Of a stretch of DNA of 64,000 nt, positions 3 through 62,477 are shown in pieces. The translations under genes and the position numbers were made by a program. Position 1 is the stretch's first letter; each line of letters begins with the position of its first letter. The notes below the pieces were generated by a model. The model saw nothing but the letters and a program-made list of their open reading frames with translations, did not search any database and was not told the DNA's origin. Source of the DNA: Bacteroidota bacterium (GTDB taxonomy: Bacteria > Bacteroidota > Ignavibacteria > UBA10030 > SZUA-254); the NCBI GenBank assembly GCA_036522515.1, contig DATDFQ010000015.1, positions 1 to 64,000 of the forward strand, written 5' to 3'.

Positions 3-2435
3 GGAACGTCTCCCCAAACGGGCGACACCCTTTACTCCCGGCCGCACGATATCTTCCCCGAGGAGCTGATGAGGCAGATGCCCCGCTCAACCCCCAGGAG
101 CACGCCCCTCTCCACGGGCGCCGCGACCCAATCCCTCTATCAGAACGTCAATGTTTCAGTCGATACCTTTCCGCAGAATGAGCCGTCGGTGAAGATCAGC
201 CGCAAGCACCCCAACCGCGTCGTTGCCGCCTGGAGAGATTTCAGCACGGGAGTCAGCCCCGCGATACGGAGGGTGGGGTACAGCCTTTCGACGGACGGCG
301 GCGCGAACTGGTCGGCGGGCGCCCTCCTCCCCATCGTCGATCCGGTCCACCTCCGCGCGAGCGACCCGGCGGTCGGCGTCGACACCGCGGGCAATTTTTA
401 TATCGCCACGATTTCCATCAACAACACGAACAACGACGGCAAGATCCTTGTCTTCCGTTCGACGAACGAGGGGGTGACGTTCGATACGGCCAACCTGGCG
501 CCGAGCATCCCGGGGACCGCATTCGACGACAAAGAGTATATCGCATCCGATCTCAACCCGGCGAGCCCCTTCGCAAACGCGCTCTATATCAGCTGGACCC
601 GGTTCGGCACGCCGGGAGGGATCCAGCTCACCAGATCGGCCGATGCGGGGCACACCTGGTCGCCCATGGTTCAGGTCAGCGACGGGACCGGCGTTCAGGG
701 ATCCGACCCCGCCATCGGACCGAACGGGGAGGTGTATGTGGTCTGGGCGGGACCGGGGGTCATGTTCGACAAATCGACAAACGGGGGAGCGAGTTTCGGC
801 GTCGACAGCGTCATCAGCCCGGTGTCGAGCCTCCATGGTTTTCCGTCGATCGCCGTGGACTTGAGCGGCGGGGTCCGGAACGGCGCCATCTACGTGACAT
901 GGAGCGACTCGCGGAACGGAGACGACGATGTCTTCCTCAGTTCGTCCACGAACGGTGGAAAAAACTGGTCGGCACCCGTGAGAGTCAACAACGACCCGCT
1001 CCATAACGGGAAACTTCAATACTGGCCCTGGATCGCCGTCGATGAGCAGGGGGAGATGGCGATTGTCTATTACGACACGCGGAACACCGTCGACAACACC
1101 GTCTTTGAAGCGTATCTCGCCAGATCCTCCGACGGGGGGCAATCATTTTCGAACCAACTCCTGAGCTCGGCGCCTTCGCCCGCGAACACGCCGAACTCCG
1201 ACGTCCGGTTCGGAGATTATATCGGGATCGACTTCTGGAACTCGCACATCGTCCCCGTCTGGACCGACGAACGCGCGGGCGGCTTTAACATGGACATCTA
1301 CACGGCGGTCATAAGTTTGCCGCAACCTGCCTCGGTCCCGGTGTCGCTCGCCTCGGGCTGGAACATTGTCTCCCTGCCCGTCCTCACGGACAACGCCACA
1401 ACAGCGCATAACTTTCCGTTAGCAGGTTCTCCCGCATTTTCATACGAGGGAAGTTATCTGATCAACGACACGCTGGAAAACGGCCGTGGATACTGGATGA
1501 AGTTCGGTGGTTCTCAGATGCTCAAGCTCTCCGGCGATTCCCTTACCTATCTTTCCACATCGGCCTTCGGCCAGTGGAATTTGCTCGGCTCAATCTCCGC
1601 GCCCGTTCCGGTTTCTACGATCACCTCCGTTCCGCCCGGCCTCGTCGTATCACGGTATTTCGGGTTCTCATCCGGATACCATGTGATCGACAGCCTCCTG
1701 CCGGGCACGGGCTGCTGGGTCAAGACTTCGGGACCGGGCCAACTGGTCCTCTCACAATCGCTTGCAAAACAATCGATCGCGACGGCCCGCGAGCTCGATC
1801 CACTCGGCCAGCTGACCCTGTCGGACGCCTCCGGTTACGGCCAGACACTTTATTTTGGCGTGACGGGCGGCGTGACCGACACCGGAAAGTATCAGATGCC
1901 TCCCGGAGCTCCCGGTGAGGTGTTCGGTGCGCGTTTCGCATCAGGGCGAATGGTCGAGCTCTCGAGTCCGGGGGAATCGAGAATCGTTCCGATCATCCTC
2001 ACGGGGGCGGCCTACCCCCTGGCGCTCAGCTGGAAGACGCCGGACGCGTCTGCGTCGCTGCTCGTCGACGGCAAGGCGGTTCCAATGAACGGGAAGGGCT
2101 CCGCGCGACTCCTCCATCCCCCCGAACGGCTCGAGCTGGGACTCGCGCCCCCTGCGCTCTCTGAAACTCCCGAAGAAACCCGGCTCGGGCAGAACTATCC
2201 GAATCCGTTCAATCCCGCCACGACGATCCCCTTCGTCATCAATCAATCGTCGTTCGTAACCCTGAAGGTGTACGATGTTCTCGGCAGGGAGATTTCGACG
2301 CTCGTCCATGAGATGAAGCAACCGGGCAGATACTCCGTGGAATGGAACGCCGCCGGATCACCGAGCGGTCTCTATTATTATAGACTCACTGCGGGGGGCT
2401 ACACGCAGTCGAAAACAACAGCCCTGATACGGTGA
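3..2435 (+). CDS. T9SS-exported BNR/sialidase-like beta-propeller protein (5' partial)
   Basis: Large secreted or surface protein, cut by the window edge: the frame stays open from base 3 to the Met codon at 69, so the true start and signal peptide lie upstream. The visible part is about 810 residues. The first ~430 carry repeated Asp-box motifs (STDGGANW, SADAGHTW, STNGGKNW, SSDGGQSF), typical of sialidase/BNR beta-propellers. From about nt 1335 a second region begins with SGWNIVSLPV and includes GYWMKF, WNLLGS and CWVKTSG; the same region occurs in the three other large exported proteins of this window. The last ~85 residues start LGQNYPNPFNPATT and end in a basic strand, matching the T9SS type A sorting domain (Por_Secre_tail). 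The stop overlaps the next gene's GTG start. Enzymatic activity is unproven; Asp-box proteins are often binding or structural. Confidence 0.85.
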   Translation, partial: GTSPQTGDTLYSRPHDIFPEELMRQMPRSTPRSTPLSTGAATQSLYQNVNVSVDTFPQNEPSVKISRKHPNRVVAAWRDFSTGVSPAIRRVGYSLSTDGGANWSAGALLPIVDPVHLRASDPAVGVDTAGNFYIATISINNTNNDGKILVFRSTNEGVTFDTANLAPSIPGTAFDDKEYIASDLNPASPFANALYISWTRFGTPGGIQLTRSADAGHTWSPMVQVSDGTGVQGSDPAIGPNGEVYVVWAGPGVMFDKSTNGGASFGVDSVISPVSSLHGFPSIAVDLSGGVRNGAIYVTWSDSRNGDDDVFLSSSTNGGKNWSAPVRVNNDPLHNGKLQYWPWIAVDEQGEMAIVYYDTRNTVDNTVFEAYLARSSDGGQSFSNQLLSSAPSPANTPNSDVRFGDYIGIDFWNSHIVPVWTDERAGGFNMDIYTAVISLPQPASVPVSLASGWNIVSLPVLTDNATTAHNFPLAGSPAFSYEGSYLINDTLENGRGYWMKFGGSQMLKLSGDSLTYLSTSAFGQWNLLGSISAPVPVSTITSVPPGLVVSRYFGFSSGYHVIDSLLPGTGCWVKTSGPGQLVLSQSLAKQSIATARELDPLGQLTLSDASGYGQTLYFGVTGGVTDTGKYQMPPGAPGEVFGARFASGRMVELSSPGESRIVPIILTGAAYPLALSWKTPDASASLLVDGKAVPMNGKGSARLLHPPERLELGLAPPALSETPEETRLGQNYPNPFNPATTIPFVINQSSFVTLKVYDVLGREISTLVHEMKQPGRYSVEWNAAGSPSGLYYYRLTAGGYTQSKTTALIR

Positions 2436-61196: not shown

Positions 61197-61234
61197 CGAC
61201 TCGGATCCGGGGGATTTTCCTGACTTGTCGAACA

Positions 61235-61263: not shown

Positions 61264-61299
61264 GGAAACGGCCCGTTTGACGCGGCGCACACGACTTGA

Positions 61300-61422
61300 T
61301 GATCGACACAGAACAGGCGATCGGGATTATGTATCATGGGTACAGTAAGCTGTTACCTCCTGACGGCTTACCTTGTGGATTAGTGGGAGCCTGGTGCCTG
61401 GACAACACCAGGCTTTTTTTTT
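61300..61422 (+). ncRNA. candidate terminated small RNA with a CCUCC loop
   Basis: The 3' end is fixed by a strong terminator at 61388-61422. Upstream, GTAAGC (61345-61350) pairs with GCTTAC (61366-61371) around a 15-base loop containing CCTCC (61356-61360), complementary to Shine-Dalgarno sequences. No open frame and no known RNA family recognised. The 5' end is approximate, since no convincing promoter was found (TATGTA at 61328 is a weak candidate). Confidence 0.35.
61388..61422 (+). terminator. strong intrinsic terminator
   Basis: AGCCTGGTG (61388-61396), a nine-base loop, CACCAGGCT (61406-61414) and nine consecutive T. No annotated gene ends here on the plus strand, which implies an unannotated transcript. 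Confidence 0.9.
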
Positions 61423-61458
61423 ACGCTCAGAGCGGCAGGAAAGGACGCAGGAAAAGAC

Positions 61459-61593
61459 CGCAGCCTGAAGGCTGCGGCTACCAAGCTCAAGGGTTCGGTA
61501 GGCGCGACCTTCAGGTCGCGTGCCGTTCAACGCAGCCTAAAGGCTGCGGCTACCCTCCCCGAATGATTGGCGCAGCCTAAAGGCTGCGGCTAC
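61459..61593. repeat. cluster of four family B hairpins
   Basis: Copies at 61459-61482, 61497-61520, 61530-61554 and 61571-61593. Three have the stem GCAGCCT/AGGCTGC and a GGCTAC tail; one has GCGACCT/AGGTCGC preceded by GGTAGGC. Confidence 0.85.
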
Positions 61594-61679: not shown

Positions 61680-62477
61680 GTGACCAAAGAAGAACTCAAA
61701 CACCTCCTCCAGCAATACAAAAGCGGGAAACTTACCGGCGAGCAAATGGTGGACGCGATGAGCACCCTGCGCTCGGAATCGCTCGGCTTTGCGACAATCG
61801 ACCACCACCGCCAGCTCCGGCAGGGATTTCCTGAGGTCATCCTCTGCCAGGGAAAGACCCCCCTGCAGGTGGCGGAAATCGCCCTCCGCCTCACCCGCCG
61901 CGGCCAGCCGCTGCTCGCGACGAGGGCGACCCGGAAACACTTTGATACTGTCAAAAAAAAGATAAGGCACGCCCGGTATCATGAAGCCGCCCGGGTGATT
62001 ACGGCGAATGAGCCCGGCCGGCCGGCCGCGGGCCGGGGGACGATTCTCGTCGTGACAGCCGGGACAAGCGATATCCCCGTCGCCGAGGAGGCGGTCATGA
62101 CCGCCCGTATGTTCGGAAATCCCGTCGAAACGCTCTACGATGTCGGCGTGGCAGGCATTCACAGGTTGCTCGCGGGGAGCGAACAGCTCCTCCGCGCCGC
62201 CGTAATCGTCGTCGTCGCCGGGATGGAAGGCGCGCTCCCGAGCGTGGTCGGCGGATTGGTGGATGTTCCGGTCATCGCCGTTCCCACCTCCATCGGGTAC
62301 GGCGCGAGCTTTCAGGGCGTCGCGGCTCTCCTCGCGATGCTGAACTCCTGCGCAAGCGGCGTGACCGTCGTGAACATCGACAACGGCTTCGGCGCAGGCT
62401 TCGCGGCGAGTCTCATGACCAGGAACGCCGCAGGGGACGTTCCCCGCGGCCGGCCTGCGCGCAAGCGGCACACCTGA
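61680..62477 (+). CDS. larB: nickel pincer cofactor biosynthesis protein LarB (PurE-like domain)
   Basis: A 265-residue protein with a GTG start. The N-terminal LarB extension ([44 protein letters not shown]) is followed by an AIR-carboxylase-like domain with [54 protein letters not shown] and [13 protein letters not shown]. LarB carboxylates and hydrolyses nicotinic acid adenine dinucleotide in the first step of the nickel-pincer cofactor of lactate racemase. The partners LarC and LarE are not in the window. It is probably co-transcribed with cystathionine beta-synthase 25 bases downstream. Confidence 0.9.

Follow-up and report, generated by a model that had tools for sequence, protein, structure and literature searches.

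Our analysis indicates that the stretch between plsY and larB very probably is a real gene for an RNA of about 78 bases, which is also present in related bacteria. The RNA exposes an anti-Shine-Dalgarno (anti-SD) motif in a hairpin loop, and from its sequence and by analogy with described small RNAs we consider it probable that it acts in trans, occluding start sites that bear Shine-Dalgarno (SD) sequences, and that it is the local form of a family found across the class. Hereafter, the window denotes the whole 64,000-nucleotide stretch of DNA that was analysed, G000 the 3.5-Mb assembly to which the window belongs, and f1 the window's taxonomic family, represented by 15 genomes. A DNA search of the whole genome found the element once in G000, and its parts are as follows.

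61332-61337, plus strand: -10-like box TATCAT, read from the sequence, with a 7-nt spacer to the hairpin
61345-61422, plus strand: predicted small RNA of ~78 nt, its 5' end placed by the -10 box and the stem, its 3' end by the T tract
61345-61371, plus strand: hairpin 1 (GTAAGCTGT / TACCTCCTG / ACGGCTTAC), with a 9-bp stem that covaries among relatives and a 9-nt loop, UACCUCCUG
61354-61361, plus strand: anti-SD loop core UACCUCCU, with CCUCC at 61356-61360
61375-61385, plus strand: single-stranded linker of 11 nt, GTGGATTAGTG as DNA and GUGGAUUAGUG as RNA
61388-61422, plus strand: intrinsic terminator, stem AGCCUGGUG / CACCAGGCU, with nine U

The terminator, whose stem pairs 61388-61396 with 61406-61414 and whose nine T occupy 61414-61422, can be read directly in the sequence, as the initial annotation had done, and the hairpin loop presenting CCUCC that it had placed just 5' of the terminator is confirmed at 61345-61371. 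It had drawn the element as 61300-61422, of which the end stands and the start does not: the RNA very likely begins near 61345, because TATCAT lies at 61332-61337 and relatives keep a TATATT-type box there. In most relatives TATATT or a variant of it is found 6-7 nt 5' of the stem, and 12 of the 13 columns from the -10 box to 61344 are identical in the same-genus genome. No -35 match was recognised at normal spacing from TATCAT in the window copy, and a promoter scan offers another pair instead, TCGACA/GATTAT at 61303-61330. Folded in silico in isolation, the 77-nt RNA forms exactly two hairpins (-30.8 kcal/mol, z -3.49), a stability that none of 200 shuffles equalled; for the G000 and G001 copies the predicted fold adds two pairs within the 9-nt loop, of which 5 nt stay unpaired.

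Taken by itself, the terminator pattern is no more frequent than chance would give, with 2 found in 2 kb against an expectation of 2.6, and among the window's 336 CCTCC sites, counted on both strands, the hairpin comes first by stem length. We judge the element to be real despite the chance-level terminator because conservation decides the matter: in the comparison with the same-genus genome, the only other genome of the window's genus in the set compared, 62 of the 80 columns of the RNA agree, but the flanks agree in only 38 of 87 and 28 of 96 columns. Hairpin, loop, linker and -10 box are all kept, so that conservation reaches beyond the terminator, and together with the compensatory changes in the stem this supports the earlier proposal that the site encodes a regulatory RNA not yet described, whose loop carries an anti-SD. 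As that annotation had also remarked, no plus-strand gene ends at the site: plsY (PF02660 by Pfam) lies on the minus strand, and the gene called larB, which encodes an AIR-carboxylase domain (PF00731 by Pfam), starts downstream on the plus strand at 61680, its protein being closest to those of Ignavibacteriae MAGs (best identity 75%). The sole overlapping plus-strand ORF of at least 60 aa (94 aa, 61296-61580) looks spurious. The window also holds two clusters of REP-like palindromes (GCAGCCTxAAGGCTGCGGCTAC, with the relative GCGACCT..AGGTCGC), one of them directly 3' of the small RNA.

61460, 61532 and 61572, plus strand; 52630 and 52834, minus strand; 52664, 52775 and 61504: REP-like palindromes and their relative in the window

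Within f1, a covariance model built from two sequences (R1) and then one built from four (R2) recovered the hairpin followed by the terminator, which we call type 1, in 8 of the 15 genomes (G000, G001, G005, G007, G008, G009, G011 and G013). The hairpin form was not found by the models in the other seven, and six of these (G003, G004, G006, G010, G012 and G014) gave no such element with R1 or R2. In the alignment of the eight sequences, which was fitted to a model that four of them had built and hence leans that way, 8 of the 17 pairs changed on both sides and 96.2% of cells are paired; the covariation score was reached by none of 500 shuffles, and slid-partner controls pair at 23-51%. CCUCC is contained in the loop of seven of the eight copies, the loop of G009 reading CCUACUCCU. 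The linker is identical in G000, G007 and G011 and in both hairpin-less copies of G002, shows one difference each in G005 and G009 and two in G001, and has diverged in G008 and G013. Its degree of conservation is about that of the loop in part of the family. Judging from its sequence, the linker may function as a separate module and may even be the working part of the RNA. Its complement occurs in the window at the level of chance (five found, including the element itself, against 7.1 expected).

Several further sequences were encountered in the course of these searches. G002 has two copies of the linker and terminator without the anti-SD hairpin, both on the minus strand (L099, 1501-1566, and L101, 1501-1577), and the former stands behind a TATATT box. 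G009 has a second hairpin with the loop AATAGCTCC and a terminator (L199, ~1501-1579, plus strand), possibly a paralogue of the window RNA. A different hairpin with a terminator, carrying AGACAGGCGACCCTCCC on the loop side, is common to G007 and G005 (L203, ~1501-1562, and L205, ~1501-1590, both plus strand) and is perhaps another small RNA; an Rfam scan gave no hit near it. At E ≤ 0.02, R2 had a match in 32 of 391 class genomes, and 17 loci beyond the four seeds were read: four are type 1, four are of a second type described below, and nine (L113, L114, L116-L119 and L124-L126) were dropped, as they clearly share only the terminator. In the window's genome R2 matches G000:C18 at E 0.02, and the second R1 match, G000:C5, was dropped as it has CCTCC but no hairpin. 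The pattern TACCTCC N5-25 GTGGATNNGTG, run on 98 genomes of the order, matched in seven; on inspection G065, G082 and G094 proved to have no hairpin plus terminator and were discarded.

The second form, type 2, is represented by weak R2 matches in G031, G022, G021 and G250 (twice). Its hairpin is longer, with a loop of the type UUYCUCCCCUGA; an outer helix begins at the first base (GACC/GGUC, with different pairs in other genomes), a TATATT-like box lies 6 nt 5' and, in most cases, there is a terminator whose loop is C-rich. A third covariance model, R3, was built from those five type-2 sequences only, with no f1 sequence included, and was searched against the 391 class genomes. With E-values that rest on a short calibration, 185 of the 391 genomes match at E ≤ 0.01 and 133 at E ≤ 1e-6, the latter comprising 60 in the order outside f1 and 73 in the rest of the class. 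Matches between 1e-6 and 0.01 (52 of the 185 genomes) were excluded from the membership count, since values of 1e-3 to 4e-6 also occur in genomes outside the class; the 52 include three f1 genomes, G000, G007 and G011, in each of which the element itself gives the best match. In a phylum sample of 395 genomes, none outside the class passes 1e-6 among the matches listed (best 3.6e-6), and the sub-threshold matches there are taken, by score alone, for terminators.

In 31 type-2 sequences 99.1% of cells are paired and 12 of the 19 pairs carry double changes, and in 29 further sequences, including four of f1, 97.0% are paired and 17 of the 19 pairs changed on both sides; the covariation scores of these fitted alignments of 31 and 29 members were reached by no shuffle. 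Reading 56 type-2 copies showed the loop motif CUCCCCU in 52 and, with loose promoter patterns, a -35 in 51 and a -10 in 48; under a stricter promoter pattern applied to 45 copies, 40 have a -35 and 37 a -10. The outer helix has at least four Watson-Crick pairs in 50 of the 56 copies (shuffled mean, 19.7), for which the support is only modest, because partners swapped between loci still average 34.1 (maximum, 43). In G250 two nearly identical tandem copies lie 205 bp apart (L165, 1296-1376 and 1501-1581), each preceded by a separate TATATTT, and the gene downstream of the pair is one that we take to encode a GTP-type PEP carboxykinase; G300 has seven R3 matches. A subgroup of type 2 (L226, L227, L228, L230 and L231) starts with GAGUUGAGC or close to it, with a later GCUC as a possible partner, and is not linked to the DUF3098-like gene discussed below. 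Plasmids searched with one query, from L183, and viral contigs searched with one pattern gave no match.

In G000 the window element is the single R3 match at E ≤ 0.1 (36.9 bits, E 2e-6), and in G005, G007 and G011 it is the type-1 element that R3 matches best; at the same threshold there was no match in G001, G008 and G013, and G009 matched only at other places. Because a model without f1 sequences recovers the window element and the type-1 elements of G005, G007 and G011, we conclude, from sequence comparison, that type 1 is the f1 form of one class-wide RNA, carrying CCUCC where the type-2 loop has CUCCCC and lacking the outer helix. The order of events between type 1 and type 2 is something that we infer.

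The genomic neighborhood bears on whether such an RNA acts in cis or in trans. At type-2 loci a gene for a DUF3098-like small membrane protein lies directly 3' on the same strand in 26 of 29 and in 19 of 25 cases (of two copies submitted to Pfam, one matches DUF3098 below the cut-off, at 19.8 of 25 bits, and the other not at all), and an ABC gene (PF00005 by Pfam), presumably LolD-like, often precedes the RNA. To this extent the initial annotation's alternative of a riboswitch-like leader remnant finds support elsewhere in the class: the RNA could be a cis-acting leader or attenuator, forming part of the next gene's 5' leader, which would end most transcripts early and whose loop, in transcripts that read through, would mask the gene's own SD. 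The short 5' stretch of the DUF3098-like gene often has a GGAG-type SD able to pair with CUCC, and in the window's own genus larB follows the RNA on the same strand (G000 and G001). In a cis pairing test of 45 loci, which we read as weak (10 were skipped as no ATG was found, and 35 were tested), 11 of the 35 reached p ≤ 0.05 against shuffles; however, the median p was 0.11, and any SD pairs with CUCC. Moreover, there are RNA copies without a DUF3098-like gene, among them extra copies (the G250 tandem and single loci of G022 and G210, two genomes with more than one copy) and the subgroup that starts with GAGUUGAGC; additional copies elsewhere in a genome, such as that tandem and the seven matches of G300, speak for action in trans. 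In f1 the two are decoupled: 10 of the 15 genomes have the DUF3098-like gene, and R3 finds no match above noise around it (best 13.6 bits, even without filters), most of these ten loci showing, on reading, a short spacer along with the end of an ABC gene. Downstream of the RNA in f1, the next gene is, as read, convergent in five of eight loci (G005, G007, G008, G009 and G013) and otherwise varies, being larB in G000 and G001 and, in G011, a gene that we take to be DUF2130-like. The RNA thus appears to have left its place before the DUF3098-like gene in f1, where a purely cis-acting leader is unlikely, and the DUF3098 loci without an R3 match, together with the convergent neighbors, suggest a stand-alone RNA that acts in trans, at least in this family. 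A cis-acting leader is therefore an explanation of the RNA as a whole to which we give a rather small probability, while outside f1 the RNA may have a cis role before the DUF3098-like gene, since the loop can pair with the SD of that gene in some loci.

Two other explanations concern the site itself and are both very improbable. On the minus strand at 61337-61371 the frame of plsY runs on to an ATG at 61337, with AGGAGGTAAC, the complement of the small RNA loop, upstream, and this strand could then be a 5' leader for plsY in which AGGAGG serves as the SD, the loop being its antisense; yet the whole plsY domain lies downstream of an inner ATG at 61197, the plsY ORF is not extended in this way in the same-genus genome G001, plsY is not, on reading, a neighbor of the other f1 copies, and the T tract on the plus strand fits transcription of that strand. 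That the site holds a stray terminator and a chance hairpin with no regulation would agree with the terminator scan, but is in our view refuted by the covariation, and recovery by an independent model across the class also speaks against it. A fourth explanation, that of a decoy, turns on the loop and the linker. The 16S rRNA of G000 ends GGATCACCTCCTTTCT, and the loop UUACCUCCU (the core with U61353) matches the 16S 3' tail of the same genome, UCACCUCCU, at eight of nine positions; the loop could thus mimic the tail and titrate a factor such as bS21 or another protein of the 30S platform, or the linker could bind an RNA-binding protein. In favor of this, the linker, which does not pair, hardly varies, G002 retains it in the absence of the hairpin, and excerpts of PMC9976891 describe the 16S tail of Bacteroidia as held by bS21, bS18 and bS6. 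However, the type-2 loops, mostly CUCCCCU, are poorer mimics of the tail, and no protein partner is known here, and we regard a decoy as improbable.

We thus return to an RNA that pairs with messages. In the mechanism that we propose, RNA polymerase would start at the TATATT-type promoter and produce a transcript consisting of the hairpin, whose loop would be a free-standing copy of the 16S anti-SD, then the linker, and would stop at the terminator. The loop (in f1 mostly UACCUCC, elsewhere CUCCCCU) would serve as the seed that pairs with the G-rich SD of chosen mRNAs, which would keep the 30S subunit off them and repress their translation, and linker and stem would add target choice. AGGAGG N4-10 ATG occurs 280 times in G000, compared with 188 for a reversed control pattern, and SD use in this genome seems present but sparse, so that an anti-SD RNA would have few targets. 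There is no AGGAGGTAAC N0-12 ATG in G000, and hence no target that fits the whole loop exactly. When 30 of the 280 sites were fetched, 19 proved to start an ORF of at least 60 aa; bS21 was not recognised among these 30, which says little. Several points weigh against occlusion of start sites in trans: besides the sparse use of SD and the lack of an exact whole-loop target, the linker varies about as little as the loop does in part of the family and occurs with the terminator alone in G002, the window copy has no recognisable -35, and 7 of the 15 f1 genomes lack the modelled hairpin form. Even so, we hold it to be the probable function.

According to excerpts of PMC9976891, the anti-SD of Bacteroidia is sequestered and SD sequences are rare, with rpsU as a marked exception in many lineages, and Chlorobia likewise mostly lack SD. 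It would be tempting to suppose, although this is speculative and we would sooner doubt it than assert it, that a class in a largely SD-less phylum keeps a dedicated, class-wide small RNA as a mobile copy of the anti-SD, which might act as a precise switch on the few messages with an SD, for example that of bS21, and that in f1 the loop was sharpened from CUCCCC to CCUCC and the gene moved away from the DUF3098-like site. If this were true, the target named as an example would be a protein that helps to hide the ribosome's own anti-SD in Bacteroidia. The anti-SD small RNAs with which we compared it are proteobacterial, where SD sequences are common; an anti-SD RNA in a phylum where Bacteroidia and Chlorobia are mostly without SD could offer a handle on the regulation of translation start there, and the role of the remaining SD sequences becomes testable. 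In addition, with members in 133 of 391 class genomes at the strict threshold, this looks like a large RNA family without a matching Rfam entry in these scans, and a hypothesis for its mechanism lies close at hand.

The initial annotation had allowed that an Rfam match might change the identity of the RNA. Rfam scans gave no family at cut-off in the window; in two further sets, of 11 and 16 loci, the hits above cut-off were tRNAs, with none at the RNA, and open-access literature searches did not find the RNA, which is no proof that it is unprinted. Below the thresholds, ar14, anti-hemB and RF02278 appeared, and the likeness to these is one of a similar way of working, not of membership. With ar14 (RF02344, alphaproteobacteria) the RNA shares an anti-SD motif in a hairpin loop and a promoter of its own, and NfeR1, the founder of ar14, silences ntrB through base pairing of its CCUCCUCCC loops at the start site, as described in excerpts of PMC10746234. 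The best type-2 score for ar14 is 39.1 bits (L187), below the gathering cut-off of 58.8, and the Rfam scan gave no ar14 hit for the window element or the f1 forms. Moreover, ar14 is 123 nt long with three CCUCCUCCC motifs in hairpins (excerpts of PMC10746234), whereas the RNA described here has ~78 nt and one anti-SD hairpin, f1 forms having two hairpins with a single anti-SD loop and type 2 adding a C-rich terminator loop to it. The Betaproteobacteria toxic small RNA (RF02278) is likewise a double hairpin, the second being the terminator, with a CU-rich unpaired stretch (excerpts of PMC5688073), and the window element aligns to it end to end, but with a score of only 20.9 bits (E 0.13), the cut-off being 50; the alignment shown puts the CCUCC of RF02278 in a 5' stretch that is not paired and that of the window element in a hairpin loop. 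For anti-hemB (RF02837), a small RNA of Burkholderia, the best type-2 score is 32.5 bits, below the cut-off of 49.5. Rfp18 of Flavobacterium psychrophilum, whose deletion lowers two metalloprotease mRNAs, is a small RNA of the same phylum that also has a strong predicted structure; excerpts of PMC9723704 place its predicted pairing region in a third stem-loop, unlike here, and the lead was dropped on this description rather than on sequence. What the RNA has in common with anti-SD small RNAs is a CCUCC-type motif that is unpaired in a conserved hairpin loop, and, as far as can be read from sequence, a stand-alone gene with its own terminator and promoter, the latter without a clear -35 in the window copy; and what places it in a class-wide family is its recovery by a model that held no relative from its own family.
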